The position numbers and the translations under genes were made by a program. Below the pieces are notes generated by a model. That model did no database searches. It saw nothing but the letters and a program-made list of their open reading frames with translations, and had not been told where the DNA came from. Shown piece by piece: positions 19,643 to 60,388 of a DNA stretch of 61,952 nt. Position 1 is the first letter of the stretch; the number at the start of each line of letters is the position of its first letter. The DNA is from a bacterium (GTDB taxonomy: Bacteria > UBP15 > UBA6099): positions 1 through 61,952 of the forward strand of contig JAKQPS010000093.1 of the NCBI GenBank assembly GCA_029564595.1, given 5' to 3'.

Positions 19643-19711
19643 AAAAGGGGAAAAAGGGGAAAGGGGAAAGAAAGAAAATAGAAAAAAAGGAAAAGAAAAA
19701 AGAAAAAAGCC

Positions 19712-19740
19712 AAAGAGATACTTTTGAAAAGTTTCTCTTT
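19712..19740. terminator. Hairpin after pyrG (Rep-G, first module)
   Basis: AAAGAGATACTTTT, GA loop, AAAGTTTCTCTTT: a 13-bp stem with one mismatch. It is the first half of the Rep-G pair also found after fapA (28967) and after the enoyl-CoA hydratase gene (45753). Confidence 0.6.
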
Positions 19741-19766
19741 GAATCTCTTCAAAACGTTTCAATGGT

Positions 19767-19805
19767 CGTCGGGAGAGAATCGCTGACGCGCTTCTTCTCC
19801 CGACG
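19767..19805. repeat. Rep-G second hairpin, copy 1
   Basis: CGTCGGGAGA and TTCTCCCGACG pair around a loop containing CGCTGACGCG. The equivalent hairpins at 29011 and 45809 have different arm sequences but are also well paired. Confidence 0.6.
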
Positions 19806-19916
19806 CCCTATGTAAAATCGTAATCGTAGGGGCGGGGCTTGCCCCCGCCCTTTTAACATTTCGGGCGACCCAGCGGGTCGCTCCTGCGTCTTCGCAATCG
19901 CAACCGCCAAAACAAA

Positions 19917-19995
19917 ATTGAAGAGTTTGGGAAAGGGGTTTGGGGAACAACCCTTTTCAAAGGGTTTTCCCCAACCGCCGCAGGCGGCCGCGCCG
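19917..19995. repeat. Rep-A palindromic repeat, copy 1
   Basis: Core hairpin at 19940-19974 (TTGGGGAACAACCCTTTT / AAAGGGTTTTCCCCAA), preceded by GGGAAAGGGG and followed by a CCGCCGCAGGCGG mini-hairpin. About eight copies lie in the window. Confidence 0.75.
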
Positions 19996-20025
19996 CCTTT
20001 ATTTTTTCTTTTCCTCTCTTTTCAC

Positions 20026-20128
20026 ATGATACGCGCCGAAGGCGGAGGCGAAGCCCCGCCTTCGGCGCTGGCATGAAAGATTTTGAAAGGGATTTTAAGG
20101 AAAAACTTTTTTAAAAGTTTTCCCTTAA
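20026..20128. repeat. Rep-B palindromic repeat, copy 1
   Basis: Two modules. The first is a hairpin at 20033-20068 with a perfect 13-bp stem starting GCGCCGAAGGCGG. After a linker containing ATTTTGAAAGGGATTT comes a second hairpin at 20095-20128 (TTAAGGAAAAACTTTT/AAAAGTTTTCCCTTAA). Other copies are at 28835, 29107 and 58319. In the gap 19643-20254 nothing else is seen. Confidence 0.75.
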
Positions 20129-22475: not shown

Positions 22476-22707
22476 CAACCCGAATCCATCATCAGGATTC
22501 GGGAGCGATTGTTTAGCGCGGATAAAACGCGGAACTCAAGGCGCGTTTTTTGAATTAGGGGCGGGGTTGCCCCGCCCCTAATTGTCGTAGTTATTGGGCG
22601 CGGAAACCGCGCCCCTACTGAACAAAAAAATGCGGCGGCAACGAAGCGGTTCGCCGCTATGAAAATCGTCACGGCTCGTCGGCTCCATCGACGAATCCGG
22701 GTTCAAA
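22476..22707. repeat. Rep-C composite repeat, copy 1
   Basis: Outer hairpins CCCGAATCC/GGATTCGGG (left) and a GGCTCGTCG/CGACGAATCC type (right) bracket a core with GCGATTGTTTAG. Two inner GC hairpins, GGGGCGGGGTTGCCCCGCCCC and GGGCGCGGAAACCGCGCCC, are nested in the middle. Other copies are at 28571, 33653 and 35379 (inverted). Confidence 0.75.
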
Positions 22708-22754
22708 AGTTTCTCTTTGGCCGCCGGGGCGCTTTTAAGGGAAAGCTGTTATTG

Positions 22755-26610: not shown

Positions 26611-28464
26611 ATGGCAAACGGCGACAATCAAGGCCTTTTCAAGCTAAGCTACGAAGCTCAGGGCGTTAAAATCGCCTTCTCGCCAGACAGCTTCAACGAC
26701 ACCGCGGCCGCTTTCACCGCCGCAAAAGAGACCCTCCTCGACAAACGCGTCGATCAGGTCGACTTCGGCGCGATCGAAAACGCCCTCAACAGCAAAAACA
26801 CCGAGCCTTTCGTCGTCGCCCCCCCACAGCCCGAAGCCGTCAACGGCACAGTTACTGCCAAACTGAATGAATTGAAAGACAAAGTCCTCATAAAAATCGA
26901 CCCCCCCATGGGCAGAGGCAAAAAAGCCGAGATCAAAGACGTCATGGAAGCCGTCAAAACCGCCGGCGCCGCAACCTTCTTCCTCGACCTAGAAAAAATC
27001 GAGAACATTATTTCTTCCATAAGATTCAGAGATTTCATAGAAGTCGGCGAGATGCGCCACGGCAGGTTCGACATCAACATCTCCAAAGACTCCACCCAAG
27101 CCCTCATCAAACTCCAGCCTCCCTTCGGCGGCAACCCCATCGATAAAAGCGACATTCTTTCCTACCTCAAAAGAAACGAAATCACCACCGGCATCATGAT
27201 GGACGCCATAGACAAAATCATCAAAGAGGGCCTCTACAATCAGGACCTCGTCATCGCCAAAGGCCAGCGGCCCGAAGACGGACAGGACGGCGAGATAGAA
27301 TACTTCTTCGACATCAACGCCGGAAAACCGAAACCAAAAGTCGACGAGGAAGGCGAAGTCGATTTCAAAGAACTCAACCTGTTCCACAAATGCAAAGCGG
27401 GCGACCCCCTCGCAAGGAAAAAACCCGCCACCCCCGGAAGACCGGGAATCACTATCTACGGCGCGCCCATCGCTCAGCGCGCCGGACGCGACATCCCCAC
27501 CCCCATCGGCCTCAACACCAAACCCGCCCCCTCCGATCCCAACCTCATCCTCGCCGCCGTTGACGGCCAGCCCAAACTCACAAGCAACAAAGTGAACGTC
27601 ATCCCCGTCGTCGAGATTCCCGGCGACGTCGACTACTCAACAGGCAACATCGACTTCACCGGCTCGGTGCATGTTCGCGGCAGCGTCCTGTCCGGATTCA
27701 CCATCCGCGCCATGGGCGATATCCAGATCGGCGGCAGCGTCGAAATCTGCACCATCGAGTGCGGCGGCAACATGATCGTCAAACAGGGAATCCTCGGACA
27801 AGACAAAGCCCTCATCGTCTGCCGCGGCAACCTCACCGCCAAGTTCATCGACAAAGCCACCATCTACGCCGACGGCGACGTCTATGTCGACGAATCCATC
27901 ATGTACTCCAAAATCAGCAGCTCCGGAAAAGTCGTCCTCTCCGGAAAAAAAGGCTTCATCATGGGCGGCGTCACCCGCGCCGCAAAAAGCGTCTCCTGCA
28001 ACCAAGTCGGCACTCCCACCCAGACCCCCACCTTCATCGAAGTCGGCGGCAGCCCCACCCTCCGCGAAGAACTCGACAAAATGCAGAACGAAATTAAAGA
28101 CGCCGAAAAACAAGTCGAGATGCAGAGCAAATCCCTCGAAAGCTCCGAAAAACGCAAACATTGCTCCCCCGAACAGATAACAGACGAACAGCAGCAGCGC
28201 ATCCTCCTCATGTCCCGCGACCGCTTCGCCCTCCTCGCAAAACTCCGCGCCTTCAAGGAAAAAAAGGAAGACCTCGAAGAAAAACTCGTCAGACTAAAAA
28301 GCGCCGGACTCAAAGTCCACGTCAGAAAAAAAGTCATGCCCGGCGTCAAAATCACCATCAAAAACGCCTCGTGGCTCTCCGCAGACTCCCTCGACTTCGC
28401 CACCTTCAGAGAATACGACGGCGAAATCGAGTTCGGCCCCTACGAAGCCGAAGCGGACAAATAA
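26611..28464 (+). CDS. FapA-family (DUF342) protein
   Basis: The 617-residue protein has an N-terminal FapA region with KIDPPMGRGKKAEIKDVM. A central beta-helix of short strands, GDVDYSTGNIDFTGSVHVRG through GDIQIGGSVE to GDVYVDES (about 340-460), is the core of FapA/polymer-forming proteins. A long coiled coil (about 495-575) and a short beta-rich end follow. FapA members act in cell-envelope or polar localisation; the name comes from a flagellar-placement role that is not general. No flagellar gene is present in this window. AGGAG at 9 nt fixes the start. It is divergent from the GGDEF operon. Confidence 0.85.
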   Translation: MANGDNQGLFKLSYEAQGVKIAFSPDSFNDTAAAFTAAKETLLDKRVDQVDFGAIENALNSKNTEPFVVAPPQPEAVNGTVTAKLNELKDKVLIKIDPPMGRGKKAEIKDVMEAVKTAGAATFFLDLEKIENIISSIRFRDFIEVGEMRHGRFDINISKDSTQALIKLQPPFGGNPIDKSDILSYLKRNEITTGIMMDAIDKIIKEGLYNQDLVIAKGQRPEDGQDGEIEYFFDINAGKPKPKVDEEGEVDFKELNLFHKCKAGDPLARKKPATPGRPGITIYGAPIAQRAGRDIPTPIGLNTKPAPSDPNLILAAVDGQPKLTSNKVNVIPVVEIPGDVDYSTGNIDFTGSVHVRGSVLSGFTIRAMGDIQIGGSVEICTIECGGNMIVKQGILGQDKALIVCRGNLTAKFIDKATIYADGDVYVDESIMYSKISSSGKVVLSGKKGFIMGGVTRAAKSVSCNQVGTPTQTPTFIEVGGSPTLREELDKMQNEIKDAEKQVEMQSKSLESSEKRKHCSPEQITDEQQQRILLMSRDRFALLAKLRAFKEKKEDLEEKLVRLKSAGLKVHVRKKVMPGVKITIKNASWLSADSLDFATFREYDGEIEFGPYEAEADK

Positions 28465-28570
28465 CCCGTCTGTTAACTAAACCGTTTTTTCTCTGCAATC
28501 TTTCCTTTTCTTTTGCCACCTCTCTTGCCTGATTGTGTCTATTTTCAGTTGATTCTACCCGGAAGAATTT

Positions 28571-28800
28571 GAACCCGAATCCGCCATTAGGATTCGGACG
28601 CGATTGTTCAGAGCGGATGAAACGCGAGACGCAAGGCGCGTTTTTGCAGCAGGGGCGGGGTTGCCCCGCCCCAAATTATCGTAGTTATTGGGCGCGGAAA
28701 CCGCGCCCCTACTGAACAAAAAATGTGGCGTCAACGAAGCTGTTCGCCGCTATGAAAATCGCCCCCGGTTCGCTGGCTATATCGGCGAATCCGGGATGAA
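28571..28800. repeat. Rep-C composite repeat, copy 2
   Basis: Same order as copy 1, including both nested GC hairpins. The right-end hairpin is altered: GTTCGCTGGCTATATCGGCG instead of the GTCGGCTC..CGACGA type. The gap 28465-29253 holds only repeats. Confidence 0.72.
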
Positions 28801-28834
28801 CAAGCTTCCTTTGATAATCCTTTCCCAATTCTTT

Positions 28835-28943
28835 TCACATGAGCGCGGCGGAGCGCAGGCGCGAACGCGCCTGCTTCGCCGCGCGCATCGAAATATTTTG
28901 AAAGGGATTTTAAGGGAAAACTTTTTCAAAAGTTTTCCCTTAA
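28835..28943. repeat. Rep-B palindromic repeat, copy 2
   Basis: First hairpin at 28843-28884 uses GCGCGGCG/CGCCGCGC and an inner CAGGCGCG/CGCGCCTG, very different in sequence from the other copies. The second hairpin, 28910-28943, is the perfect TTAAGGGAAAACTTTT/AAAAGTTTTCCCTTAA stem. Confidence 0.75.
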
Positions 28944-28966
28944 CAGCATTAAAGCGCCCCGGCGGT

Positions 28967-29048
28967 TCAAGGAAACTTTGAAAAGTTTCCTTGAAAATCC
29001 ATTTCCTTGCGCGTCGGGAAGGGACGTTACCGCGTCCCTTCCCGACGC
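28967..29048. repeat. Rep-G double hairpin, copy 2
   Basis: Hairpin 28967-28994 (TCAAGGAAACTTT/AAAGTTTCCTTGA), then 29011-29048 with a perfect stem GCGTCGGGAAGGGACG and its complement. Confidence 0.65.
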
Positions 29049-29106
29049 TCCTTTGAAATCATTTATAAATAAGATTCCGCTGAAAACCCCTTTTCCAATA
29101 TCTTTT

Positions 29107-29212
29107 CACATGATACGCGCCAAAGGCAGAAGCGAAGCTCTGCCTTTGGCGCTAACATGAAATATTTTGAAAGGGATTTTAAGGGAAAACTTTTTCAAAA
29201 GTTTTCCCTTAA
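29107..29212. repeat. Rep-B palindromic repeat, copy 3
   Basis: First hairpin 29117-29152 has a perfect 14-bp stem GCGCCAAAGGCAGA. Compared with copy 1, two G:C pairs have become A:T on both arms. The second hairpin at 29179-29212 is identical to that of copy 2. Lying downstream of the leftward HTH gene, it may act as its terminator. Confidence 0.75.
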
Positions 29213-29253
29213 CTCCCCTCTTCTCCTCCCTTTTCCCCCACCTCTAAAACGCC

Positions 29254-30288
29254 TTAAATATCGCCTTTTTTCTTTCGGCCCTTGAAGAAAAACTTGCCGC
29301 CCTTTTCAGTTTCGGCGGACTCGATTGCGGGCGGCGCGGGCGAGGCGGACTTCTTAGGCTCCGCCTTGCCGTAAATGTCCCCCACAGTCTTCTTTCGGAG
29401 ATCGTCTTTCAGCTTTTCTGCCTCGCGTTTCGCGCGCACGTACAACTCCCTGAACCTCGCTGCCTCCTCGTCCCTTTTCCTCAACTCCTCGTCCCTTTTT
29501 CGCAACTCATCCTTGAGGCCGCCGATGGTCGATGCCGGAGGCGCGATTGCGGCCGGTTCCAGAATCGGAGCCGCCGGGGGCGCCACCACTGCCGGCTCCG
29601 CCGCCGGCGCGGGATTTATCTCTATATCCGGACGCCTCGGCTCCGGCGCCCGCAACGTCGGCTTCGCCGCCCCGCCCTGCCCCGACATCTTTTCGAGCCG
29701 GGACGCGACCTCTCCCGGTATGTAATATATCGCACCCTGCGTCCTCTCCAGCATATCCAGCGCCTTCGCCATCCCGTCCTGTCCCTCTTTCAGCATTCTC
29801 AGCGCCGACTCGTTGAAACTATATGTCATCTTTCGCGTCTGTTTGATATCGTCGGCGGCAGGCGCCAGCTTCTCCACTATTTCCCTTATCCTTATCAATT
29901 CATTCGCCAGCGTCGTCACGATGAACTCCTGCCTCTGCGCCTGCTCGGACAACTTGGCCACCGCCCTATCCATCTTCTCGATGAAGATGTTCGCCTCTTC
30001 CTCGCTCACCGCCGCCCTCTTCACAAGCTCATCCGGATTCATAGGAAAAATGTCCGCCAGCTCGCTCTCGGTGTCCTCCCAAGAAAGATGCCGGTCCACC
30101 CTCCGCTCCCGGATGGCCTTGAACACCTCCTCGGCCTCCGCCCTGTACCTCTTCTCGCGCCCCGACCCCACATACGGTATGAACTGCGGATACGCGTCCC
30201 TGTACTTCCTGAGCGTGCTCTCCGGAAGATTCAACCTCTGCGCTATGTCTTTAAGTGTGAATAAATCCATTCCGCCGGACATCTCCAT
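29254..30288 (-). CDS. MerR-type HTH protein with coiled coil
   Basis: The N-terminus has a winged-helix/MerR-like DNA-binding domain: LFTLKDIAQRLNLPESTLRK (about residues 7-26), then PYVGSGREKRYRAEAEEVF. After about residue 80 come helical segments with coiled-coil heptads (100-190), a Pro/Ala-rich linker (around 210-265), a charged heptad run with repeated RKRDEE units, and a basic end. No ligand-binding domain is visible. The layout resembles proteins linking DNA to a filament or polar structure as much as classical regulators. ATG 30288 has GGAG a few bases upstream. It shares a strand with the glycosidase gene 200 bp upstream. Confidence 0.65.
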   Translation of the reverse strand: MEMSGGMDLFTLKDIAQRLNLPESTLRKYRDAYPQFIPYVGSGREKRYRAEAEEVFKAIRERRVDRHLSWEDTESELADIFPMNPDELVKRAAVSEEEANIFIEKMDRAVAKLSEQAQRQEFIVTTLANELIRIREIVEKLAPAADDIKQTRKMTYSFNESALRMLKEGQDGMAKALDMLERTQGAIYYIPGEVASRLEKMSGQGGAAKPTLRAPEPRRPDIEINPAPAAEPAVVAPPAAPILEPAAIAPPASTIGGLKDELRKRDEELRKRDEEAARFRELYVRAKREAEKLKDDLRKKTVGDIYGKAEPKKSASPAPPAIESAETEKGGKFFFKGRKKKGDI

Positions 30289-33652: not shown

Positions 33653-33840
33653 CAACCCGATTCCGTCATTAGGATTCGGGAGCGATTGTTTAGAGCGGAT
33701 GAAATGCTAGGCGCAAGGCGCATTTTTGCAGTGAATAGAACTTATGGTTCATGAACAAAACAATGTGGCGGCAACGAAGCAGTTCGCCGCTATGAAAATC
33801 GCCCCGGTTCGTCGGCTCTATCGACGAATCCGGGATTAAA
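33653..33840. repeat. Rep-C composite repeat, copy 3
   Basis: Both outer hairpins and the core are present. The two nested GC hairpins of copies 1 and 2 are replaced by a short AT-rich palindromic segment (AACTTATGGTTCATGAAC). It is followed by an AAGCGGCGATGAATCGCCGC-type hairpin. From 33841 to 34405 I see no gene and no named element. Confidence 0.72.
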
Positions 33841-34405
33841 GCGGCGATGAATCGCCGCGCTCTAAATTTCGACTTCGTGCGCTAAATACTCCTTAAAACA
33901 AATATGCTGGCTGGACTTACAACGTTTCTTTAGTAATCAGGAAACATTCTGCTCACCTATTTTGTGTGACACCAGTGCGTCTTAATTTGTTTTGTATGAT
34001 GCATTATGATGCTTACTGGATTTGTATGCTATAATTTTGATGCTTCAAATGCTTTGTGCCTTTGGCTCTCTGCTATAAGTTGAAATTCTAGTTTCATCAG
34101 GTATTTAACGTCTTTATGAATTAAAGACGAATTCGAAATCCTGTGAGACTGGAGCCTCACAAAAAAGCGCAAGAGAACCTGCTGTAACAAAAACAAAGCG
34201 CTTTTCCGCTAACTCACGGAAAAACTCGCAGAGTCGGATTCCTGACGCTTCATTTTCAATTCTTTATCAACTGTGGTATTTTGAAGGCGTAAATCAGTTT
34301 GTGTTTTTGCGTGAACTTCATGTCCAATACTAGGCGCGAACGCGCAAGCGCGCAAATATTCATGATTTGCATTGTCAATAAAGGTTTTTTTGGCGCGCGC
34401 CTGTT

Positions 34406-35248
34406 TTATTTGTTCTGCACGCTGTACGTCAGGTAATAAGAGCGGTCTTTGGGCGCATTTGAGCCTGTGGCAGTCTGCATAACAGTGAATCCGATAGACG
34501 AGAGACGGCCTGTTTGCCGGGTAAGTCCGGCCCCGATTTTCACTTTGTCCTTGTTGAGATAGGAAAATGAACTAACCTGTGTCGGCGCTGTTCCAAGAGC
34601 CGTATGAGAGGTAGAATAACCATCCGTGCAGGAAATGCGGGTGACAAGCGCCCGGGCCAGCCACACGTCCGCAAACACCCGGCCGATCTCTAGGTCCACT
34701 TCCACTTCGTCCGGCGTAGAGCCTGTCCGAACCCTGTATATCGCGTCCGCCGAATAATAGAAATTTCTTTCCCTGTAATATTCGCCGAAGGAAGCTCCCG
34801 CCTCTACGTCGAAAGAGCCGTCCCCGGGCGAATTGAGATACTGTTCGTCATAGCTTCCGGGTATTCGGACGCCCGCCATGAGCGCTATGGCCGAATGCTT
34901 GTTGTGTATCTGTTTTTTGTATCTCACGTTCAGGTCGGAAATCCCTCTAATCCTGTGTTGCGTCACTCCGGGGATGGGATCCCGGGAAGATGTTATGGAG
35001 TATCCGGCAAGCACGCTGATATCCGATTTGTTTCCTAGCCCGGCGTTGTAATAGGCAAGGAACTCGAGCCTGCGCGCATGGTCGTCAAGGTCTTTCTCGT
35101 TGCCTTCGGCATTTAGAAAGGTGTTGAAATGCGTGTAAGCGGTGGTGAGAGCGAACTGAGAGCGGCCTTTTTCCTGAACCCACGGGCCAGCGGCGGCTGC
35201 TGAGCTGATAGCCGCTACGAAAATGAGCGCGGAGATGACTTTTTTCAT
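34406..35248 (-). CDS. Predicted outer-membrane beta-barrel protein
   Basis: The 280-residue protein has a signal peptide (about 1-19, ending SSAAAA). Alternating-hydrophobicity strands run through the whole length, such as FALTTAYTHFNTF, IALMAGVRIPG, FYYSADAIYRVRTG and VKIGAGLTRQTG, and the chain ends SYYLTYSVQNK, as expected of an outer-membrane barrel. The DGSFDVEAGASFG segment resembles the MetA-pathway phenol-degradation/transporter barrel group. GGAGG sits just upstream of the ATG. It is single and divergent from dnaA across a repeat-filled gap. The ligand is unknown. Confidence 0.75.
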   Translation of the reverse strand: MKKVISALIFVAAISSAAAAGPWVQEKGRSQFALTTAYTHFNTFLNAEGNEKDLDDHARRLEFLAYYNAGLGNKSDISVLAGYSITSSRDPIPGVTQHRIRGISDLNVRYKKQIHNKHSAIALMAGVRIPGSYDEQYLNSPGDGSFDVEAGASFGEYYRERNFYYSADAIYRVRTGSTPDEVEVDLEIGRVFADVWLARALVTRISCTDGYSTSHTALGTAPTQVSSFSYLNKDKVKIGAGLTRQTGRLSSIGFTVMQTATGSNAPKDRSYYLTYSVQNK

Positions 35249-35378
35249 GGCGCCTCCATTAGAACCCTAATCGCGGCGGGCGTTTTTTGCCGCAACCGCT
35301 GATGAAAAATAATACACAAAAAAAATATTCCGGGCAATAAGGCGGAGATAAAGCGCGGACCGACCGAATACTTTTTTC

Positions 35379-35565
35379 AACCCGAATTCGTCGATAGAAC
35401 CGACGAACCGGGGCGATTTTCATAGCGGCAAACTGCTTCGTTGCCGCCATATTTTTTTGTTCATGAACCCTATTTTCTATTCACTGCAAAAATGCGCCTT
35501 GCGCCTCGCATTTCATCCGCTCTGAACAATCGCTCCCGAATCCTAACGACGGATTCGGGTTCAAG
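35379..35565. repeat. Rep-C composite repeat, copy 4 (inverted)
   Basis: Reverse orientation compared with the other three, and of the short type found at 33653 (no nested GC hairpins). Copies 3 and 4 therefore form a large inverted pair flanking the outer-membrane protein gene (33653-35565). Confidence 0.72.
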
Positions 35566-45727: not shown

Positions 45728-45752
45728 TTTATAAAATGAGCCTCCGGCGGCC

Positions 45753-45847
45753 AAAGAGAACCTTTTGAAAAAGGTTCTCTTTGGAATCTCTCTAAAACTT
45801 TTCGATGCGCGGCGGATGATGTCGCTGCGCGACTTCTCATCCGCCGC
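45753..45847. terminator. Rep-G double hairpin after enoyl-CoA hydratase gene
   Basis: AAAGAGAACCTTTT, GA, AAAAGGTTCTCTTT at 45753-45782 is a perfect 14-bp stem. A second stem, GCGGCGGATGA/TCATCCGCCGC, is at 45809-45847. Third copy of the pair. Confidence 0.65.
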
Positions 45848-58318: not shown

Positions 58319-58420
58319 ACTGATATGCGCCGATGGAGCAGGCGAAGCCGCAACATCGGCGCTTGCATGATACGTTTTGAAAGGGTTTAAGGGAAAACTT
58401 TTTCAAAAGTTTTCCCTTAA
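58319..58420. repeat. Rep-B palindromic repeat, copy 4
   Basis: First hairpin 58327-58362 (GCGCCGATG/CATCGGCGC, 9 bp). Second hairpin 58387-58420, the perfect TTAAGGGAAAACTTTT stem. It separates two convergent genes, so it can terminate both strands. Confidence 0.75.
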
Positions 58421-59727: not shown

Positions 59728-59802
59728 TTCAGTCTCTGTTCTCATTGCGTTCATCATGTTTCTAATCCGTCAATCCTCTCCGCCAAATCTGTCAATAGTC
59801 TC
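59728..59802. repeat. 75-bp direct repeat, copy 1
   Basis: Begins TTCAGTCTCTGTTC and ends TGTCAATAGTCTC. It differs from copy 2 (60314-60388) at four positions. The two copies flank the small membrane-protein gene. Confidence 0.8.
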
Positions 59803-60313: not shown

Positions 60314-60388
60314 TTCAGTCTCTGTTCGCAATGCGTTCATCATGTTTCTAATCCGTCAGCCCTCTCCGCCAAATCTGTCAATAGTCTC
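60314..60388. repeat. 75-bp direct repeat, copy 2 (interrupted by IS)
   Basis: Similarity to copy 1 ends exactly at ATAGTCTC, after which the IS begins. This defines the left end of the element. Confidence 0.8.

Follow-up and report, generated by a model that had tools for sequence, protein, structure and literature searches.

A modular inverted-end repeat of UBP15 bacteria with covarying hairpin stems and loops typical of DNA mini-hairpins

Covariation between the two arms of a hairpin is usually taken as proof of RNA function. The window analysed here, a contig of 61,952 nucleotides, is part of the 4.4 Mb genome of an uncultured UBP15 bacterium (G000; completeness 97%) and carries four copies of a palindromic repeat, Rep-B, in which one hairpin changes its sequence from copy to copy. 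The locus thus raises the question of whether the changing hairpin is kept folded, whether DNA or RNA is what folds, and which process keeps its arms matched. The original prediction held that the copies share a fixed second hairpin and linker, that each variable first hairpin matches its own partner arm, and that such a pattern would follow from selection on DNA or RNA folding or from a mechanism that copies hairpins.

The repeat and its distribution

All four copies lie where they had been placed (Table 1), and the two paired G:C to A:T changes noted between the first and the third are present, at pairs 5-30 and 11-24 (0-based) of the first hairpin (hp1). Own-arm pairing of hp1 holds in general but is only partial in the copy at 58319, where nine outer base pairs are followed by mismatches. 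Likewise, the second hairpin (hp2) and the linker are near-invariant rather than fixed, as the first copy has two differences in hp2 and the fourth a shorter linker. The hp1 stem of the copy at 28835 is unrelated to the others and was classed as type II. Chance is excluded, because each copy outfolds its dinucleotide shuffles (folding z -6.4 to -10.9) and the same pattern is found in 78 type-I and 30 type-II copies from four species. Folded as RNA, the 256-nt stretch at 28960-29215 reaches -120.6 kcal/mol (z -14.4).

Table 1. Repeat features of the window (positions in nucleotides of the contig).
Feature	Position	Strand	Remarks
hp1, first focal Rep-B copy	28843..28886	+	type II stem GCGCGGCGGAGCGCAGGCGC-GAAC-GCGCCTGCTTCGCCGCGCGC
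Linker core between hp1 and hp2, first focal copy	28896..28906	+	near-invariant, TTTTGAAAGGG
hp2B, first focal copy	28910..28943	+	perfect palindrome TTAAGGGAAAACTTTTTCAAAAGTTTTCCCTTAA
hp2D	28966..28995	-	outer palindrome, inverted left end of composite
hp1D	29011..29048	-	left end of composite
hp1, second focal Rep-B copy	29117..29152	+	type I stem GCGCCAAAGGCAG(A)AGC-GAA-GCTCTGCCTTTGGCGC
Linker core, second focal copy	29165..29175	+	TTTTGAAAGGG
hp2B, second focal copy	29179..29212	+	right outer palindrome
Focal composite unit	28966-29212		247 bp
Composite at CTP synthase 3' end	19710..20128	+	
CTP synthase composite, hp2C	19710-19741		
CTP synthase composite, hp1C	19765-19805		
CTP synthase composite, GTAG-tagged hairpin	19826-19850		
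CTP synthase composite, inserted Rep-A	19940-19974, 19975-19987		hp2, hp3
CTP synthase composite, Rep-B end	20033-20068, 20095-20128		hp1B, hp2B
Fourth Rep-B copy	58327..58420	+	hp1 58327-58362 (partly paired), linker 58375-58385, hp2B 58387-58420
C-type hp2 variant	45751..45784	-	one paired change, AGAACC..GGTTCT vs usual AGAAAC..GTTTCT

Rep-B forms the right end of a larger BIME/MITE-like repeat that is modular and non-coding and has inverted ends. Each end, read outward, consists of an inner hairpin hp1, a linker and an outer hairpin hp2, so that the composite runs hp2 (of C or D type), linker, hp1, spacer, hp1B, linker, hp2B. In hp1 the stem sequence is free while pairing is kept under a c(GNA)g or c(GNNA)g cap, and type I has in addition a bulged A; hp2 is a perfect palindrome, and the linker between the two is conserved. 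The composites measure 250-420 bp and fall into discrete length classes of 247-265 (the main class), 343-365 and 406-419 bp, the larger ones containing inserted GTAG-tagged hairpins or Rep-A.

Each of four congeneric UBP15 MAGs has about 30-45 near-identical copies (about 45 in G000, 29-35 in each congener). A 44-mer probe allowing up to three mismatches found the family in all four congeners (G000-G003) but not in any of the 37 other genomes probed, and an exact Rep-B 40-mer occurs in only three MAGs among 84,980 species genomes, one named UBP15 (UBA6099) and the others ADurb.Bin236 and USCA_metabat.19. A covariance model matched 88-97 sites per congener (end types lumped) and 41 in a sister genus (G004), with no match in G005 and G006; its sensitivity may be reduced because it was built on an alternative linker/hp2 structure proposed by RNAalifold. 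As far as tested, the repeat is restricted to one family of this candidate phylum. It accounts for most long perfect palindromes in a 452 kb sample. The window gave no match to Rfam 15 at the gathering score, and viral contigs and plasmids gave no match. The viral scan, which also covered a possible likeness to intergenic hairpins of Desulfovibrio, found nothing.

Covariation of the first hairpin

The covariation of hp1 is real. When right arms were swapped among the 33 type-I copies of G000, none of 5000 swaps reached the observed 485 Watson-Crick cells out of 528 (430 +- 6.6 expected). Among the 60 distinct hp1 sequences of the four species, the paired fraction of cells is 93.4%, and both sides have changed in 74 cells, compared with 24.0 +- 3.7 in letter shuffles and 2-24 with slid partners. 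Shared ancestry alone is insufficient to account for this, because the association between paired columns (0.54) exceeds that between unpaired columns of the same two arms (0.195) and that with the flanks (about 0.08).

We also tested the pairs against a tree, in the manner of R-scape. Restricted to the proposed pairs, this two-set test gave E<0.05 at four of the eight testable pairs, and double changes on the same branch numbered 15 (14 of them Watson-Crick) against 2-4 for slid partners. The stricter test, run over every pair of columns, brings just one of them, 7-28, close to significance (E of 0.05 or 0.01, depending on the tree); an earlier run with fewer columns, now superseded, gave no significant pair. 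Tree-aware support is therefore moderate, not overwhelming. Altogether, the unpaired and random stem changes that would have spoken against the original prediction are not seen genome-wide, and its reading as folding or hairpin copying is supported by these controls and by the exchange of modules described below. Pairing is seldom perfect: seven of 61 distinct hp1 are fully Watson-Crick, and most single hairpins have one to four non-Watson-Crick cells. The alternative pairing of linker and hp2 was discarded, and no structural switch is claimed, because single-sequence minimum energies are far lower (mean -49, against -31 for the alternative) and singly folded copies form hp2.

Loop class and the folded strand

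DNA hairpin loops include a GNAB class, RNA tetraloops follow the GNRA rule, and C(GNA)G triloops are also found in RNA. Against this background the loops of hp1 are markedly constrained. Of the 78 type-I copies, 76 have GC-GNA-GC as their apical 7-mer, each of the four bases occurring at N, and substitutions fall 1/10/1 across the three loop positions (p=0.0005). Type II loops are GNAB, or less often GNNA, in 29 of 30 copies. At the C and D ends, 17 of the 23 simple tetraloops closed by C-G are GNNA, and none of these is GNRA because the third base is C or T in 17/17; the commonest C-end hp1 has no simple GNNA-capped apex. A small outer hairpin, hp3, carries a GNA loop in 45 of 49 cases, compared with about 2% of unrelated background triloop hairpins per strand. 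The rule is valid on one strand only, the strand that reads hp1, linker, hp2.

In the sister genus, hp1 keeps the bulged A and the apical GC-GNA-GC on a wholly different stem, for example GCAATTCCG(A)GC-GAA-GC-CGGAATTGC. Among the few well-parsed loops of this genus, two are GCG and two others parse without a GNA cap.

Type I, hp3 and most simple C/D-end tetraloops conform to the loop rule of DNA mini-hairpins, GNA or GNNA on at least two G-C pairs; such mini-hairpins are extraordinarily stable, and GCGAAGC melts at 78 C (PMC4686876). Since the loops obey the rules for very stable single-stranded DNA and not those for RNA, a folded DNA strand, rather than an RNA, is probably what is kept. The strong separation between the two comes only from the GNNA tetraloops that are not GNRA, because the triloops are shared with RNA. 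Here, loop class can separate a folded DNA strand from a folded RNA, and this provides an easy check applicable to many orphan repeats in bacteria.

Origin and maintenance of the composites

Module exchange is visible at orthologous sites. The 3' end of the CTP synthase gene holds a composite in all four species, with differing hp1 and inner modules, and the G003 copy at this site is a Rep-A/Rep-B recombinant. At another orthologous site the left end is of C type in one species and of D type in another, and a third site holds a composite in G001 and is nearly empty in G002, with half-palindromes remaining. Synteny breaks at repeats. Beyond the CTP synthase composite, the product of the G000 gene starts like glycerol kinase, and two congeners have a different gene there, whose flank in G000 adjoins another composite (L031); this is the pattern that a reciprocal exchange would leave. 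Sites are often common to several species, which speaks against the reading favoured below, in a sample biased by the choice of loci through the repeat itself. The copying mechanism acting on hairpins is thus partly seen, as module exchange between copies at orthologous sites. A Rep-A/Rep-B junction in G003, CCGCCGCAGGCGG/AGGCGAAGCCCC (L173 ~1263-1369), places a recombination point within hairpins.

On balance we lean towards the reading that hp1 is preserved as a folded DNA strand, recognised by its shape, and that the unit carrying it is an old, BIME/MITE-like one which recombination now reshuffles. The hairpin would fold as a single strand exposed during replication or cruciform extrusion and would be recognised through its GNA-type cap and bulge, while linker and hp2 would be recognised by sequence; this recognition may have served past spreading by a putative enzyme. 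Most of the present variation would then come from gene conversion and ectopic recombination between copies, with replication template switching inside the hairpins as a probable aid. A bolder version, which we regard as unlikely, is that a UBP15 system reads the hairpins by DNA shape and not by sequence, and that a putative single-strand enzyme moves or recombines the units via their ends. If so, any GNA- or GNNA-capped stem would be accepted in the hp1 slot, and stems could be replaced freely while the fold is kept.

The matched arms might instead be a mutational by-product of replication template switching and quasipalindrome correction, with no selected function. We are doubtful of this explanation, yet several observations fit it: template switching is known to create and maintain hairpin stems (PMC8794818), the double changes sit on single branches, two alternative G.A mismatches (hp1 8-27 or 9-26) are common and each is corrected in a few copies, and one copy (L035) has an inverted hp2 loop. 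It does not account for a loop in which N varies freely while its flanking G and A stay constant, for the persistence of the bulged A, or for entire stems having been replaced slot by slot between genera. The roughly 100 natural stems offer material for distinguishing selection from template switching as the cause of the matched arms. A role in RNA, whereby stems selected for RNA pairing would terminate transcription in both directions or stabilise mRNA 3' ends where genes converge, appears decidedly improbable. By simple ORF calling in the 452 kb sample, copies are indeed enriched in convergent gaps (33/76 placed copies vs 41/173 gaps, p=0.0025), hp2 often lies 9-41 bp from a stop codon, and terminators of Bacillus cereus evolve by compensatory change (PMC5381666). 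However, 57% of placed copies are outside convergent gaps, the tetraloops are GNYA and not GNRA, and no GC stem followed by a T run occurs in 28400-29330, the region scanned. Moreover, G.U is the main intermediate in terminators (PMC5381666), while G.T intermediates, tried here as an RNA strand test, show no clear excess over A.C (33 vs 21).

Mobilisation as REP/BIME elements by a RAYT (Y1 transposase) seems to us very improbable. It would suit short extragenic palindromes in inverted pairs, and REPINs commonly show compensatory changes (PMC3116915); Y1_Tnp genes are present in G001, G002, G004, G005 and G006. Yet G000 and G003 have none, despite as many Rep-B copies, and at four of the five Y1 loci examined (G001:C1, G002:C30, G002:C38, G004:C611) the stretch read holds no Rep-B match. 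The fifth (G001:C283) sits between palindromes of its own that differ from those of Rep-B and has a single Rep-B only on one side, at a distance of about 600 nt; none of the five is bracketed by B, C or D ends. A search for Y2 transposases found no mobilizer, but its positive control gave no match either, so that it is uninformative; repeats abutting the composites as target-site duplications were no commoner than in shuffles; and for the integron integrase model TIGR02249 no match in five genomes exceeded the cut-off, those below it being generic tyrosine recombinases. The composites thus have no known mobilizer, which counts against spreading by an enzyme.

Rep-B composites are a new variant of REP/BIME/MITE-type elements. 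Like REPs, BIMEs and REPINs, they are dispersed extragenic imperfect palindromes in inverted pairs, with modular mosaics and compensatory stem changes (PMC3116915, PMC2817692, PMC3733652). They differ in their longer ends with two hairpins each, in the GNA/GNNA loops and in the absence of a Y1 transposase from G000; the REP tag GTAG (or CGTC) is not at the foot of hp1, where the feet read ..GATAC and TAGCATG... The CGTC-tagged REPs are likewise a palindromic family without a dedicated transposase (PMC3733652), but they have 8-9 bp stems and a CCA tail, against stems of 9-17 bp arranged as hp1-linker-hp2. As in MITEs, the units are small, non-coding and of discrete size with related inverted ends (C/D and B; main class 247-265 bp); unlike in MITEs, the composite has no target-site duplication and no parental transposase was found. 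Integron attC sites, too, are sequence-variable folded DNA strands with extrahelical bases. They differ from Rep-B, where no cassette arrays were seen and no integron integrase scored above cut-off.

Several other repeats were observed. The Y1_Tnp gene at G001:C283 (L222 1209-1914) lies between inverted palindromes, CACGCACAAACTTGC and GCAAGTTTGTGCGTG, forming a RAYT-like unit distinct from Rep-B. In the window, GTAG-tagged or similar GC-rich REP-like hairpins occur at 22553-22583 as well as in the CTP synthase composite (19826-19850), despite no Y1 transposase having been found in G000. At 33654-35561, a 280-aa ORF (34406-35248, minus strand) with no Pfam or NCBIfam match is flanked by another dispersed repeat, present as two copies of 187 nt (93%) in inverted orientation and also at 22477-22708 and 28569-28800; ORF and flanking copies are possibly a mobile element. 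A 75-nt direct repeat, 95% identical, is located at 59728-59802 and 60314-60388, and a further palindrome family, TCGTTGCCAAGG..CCTTGGCAACGA, occurs at L050 13795-13821, L054 2593-2619 and L222 2074-2100.
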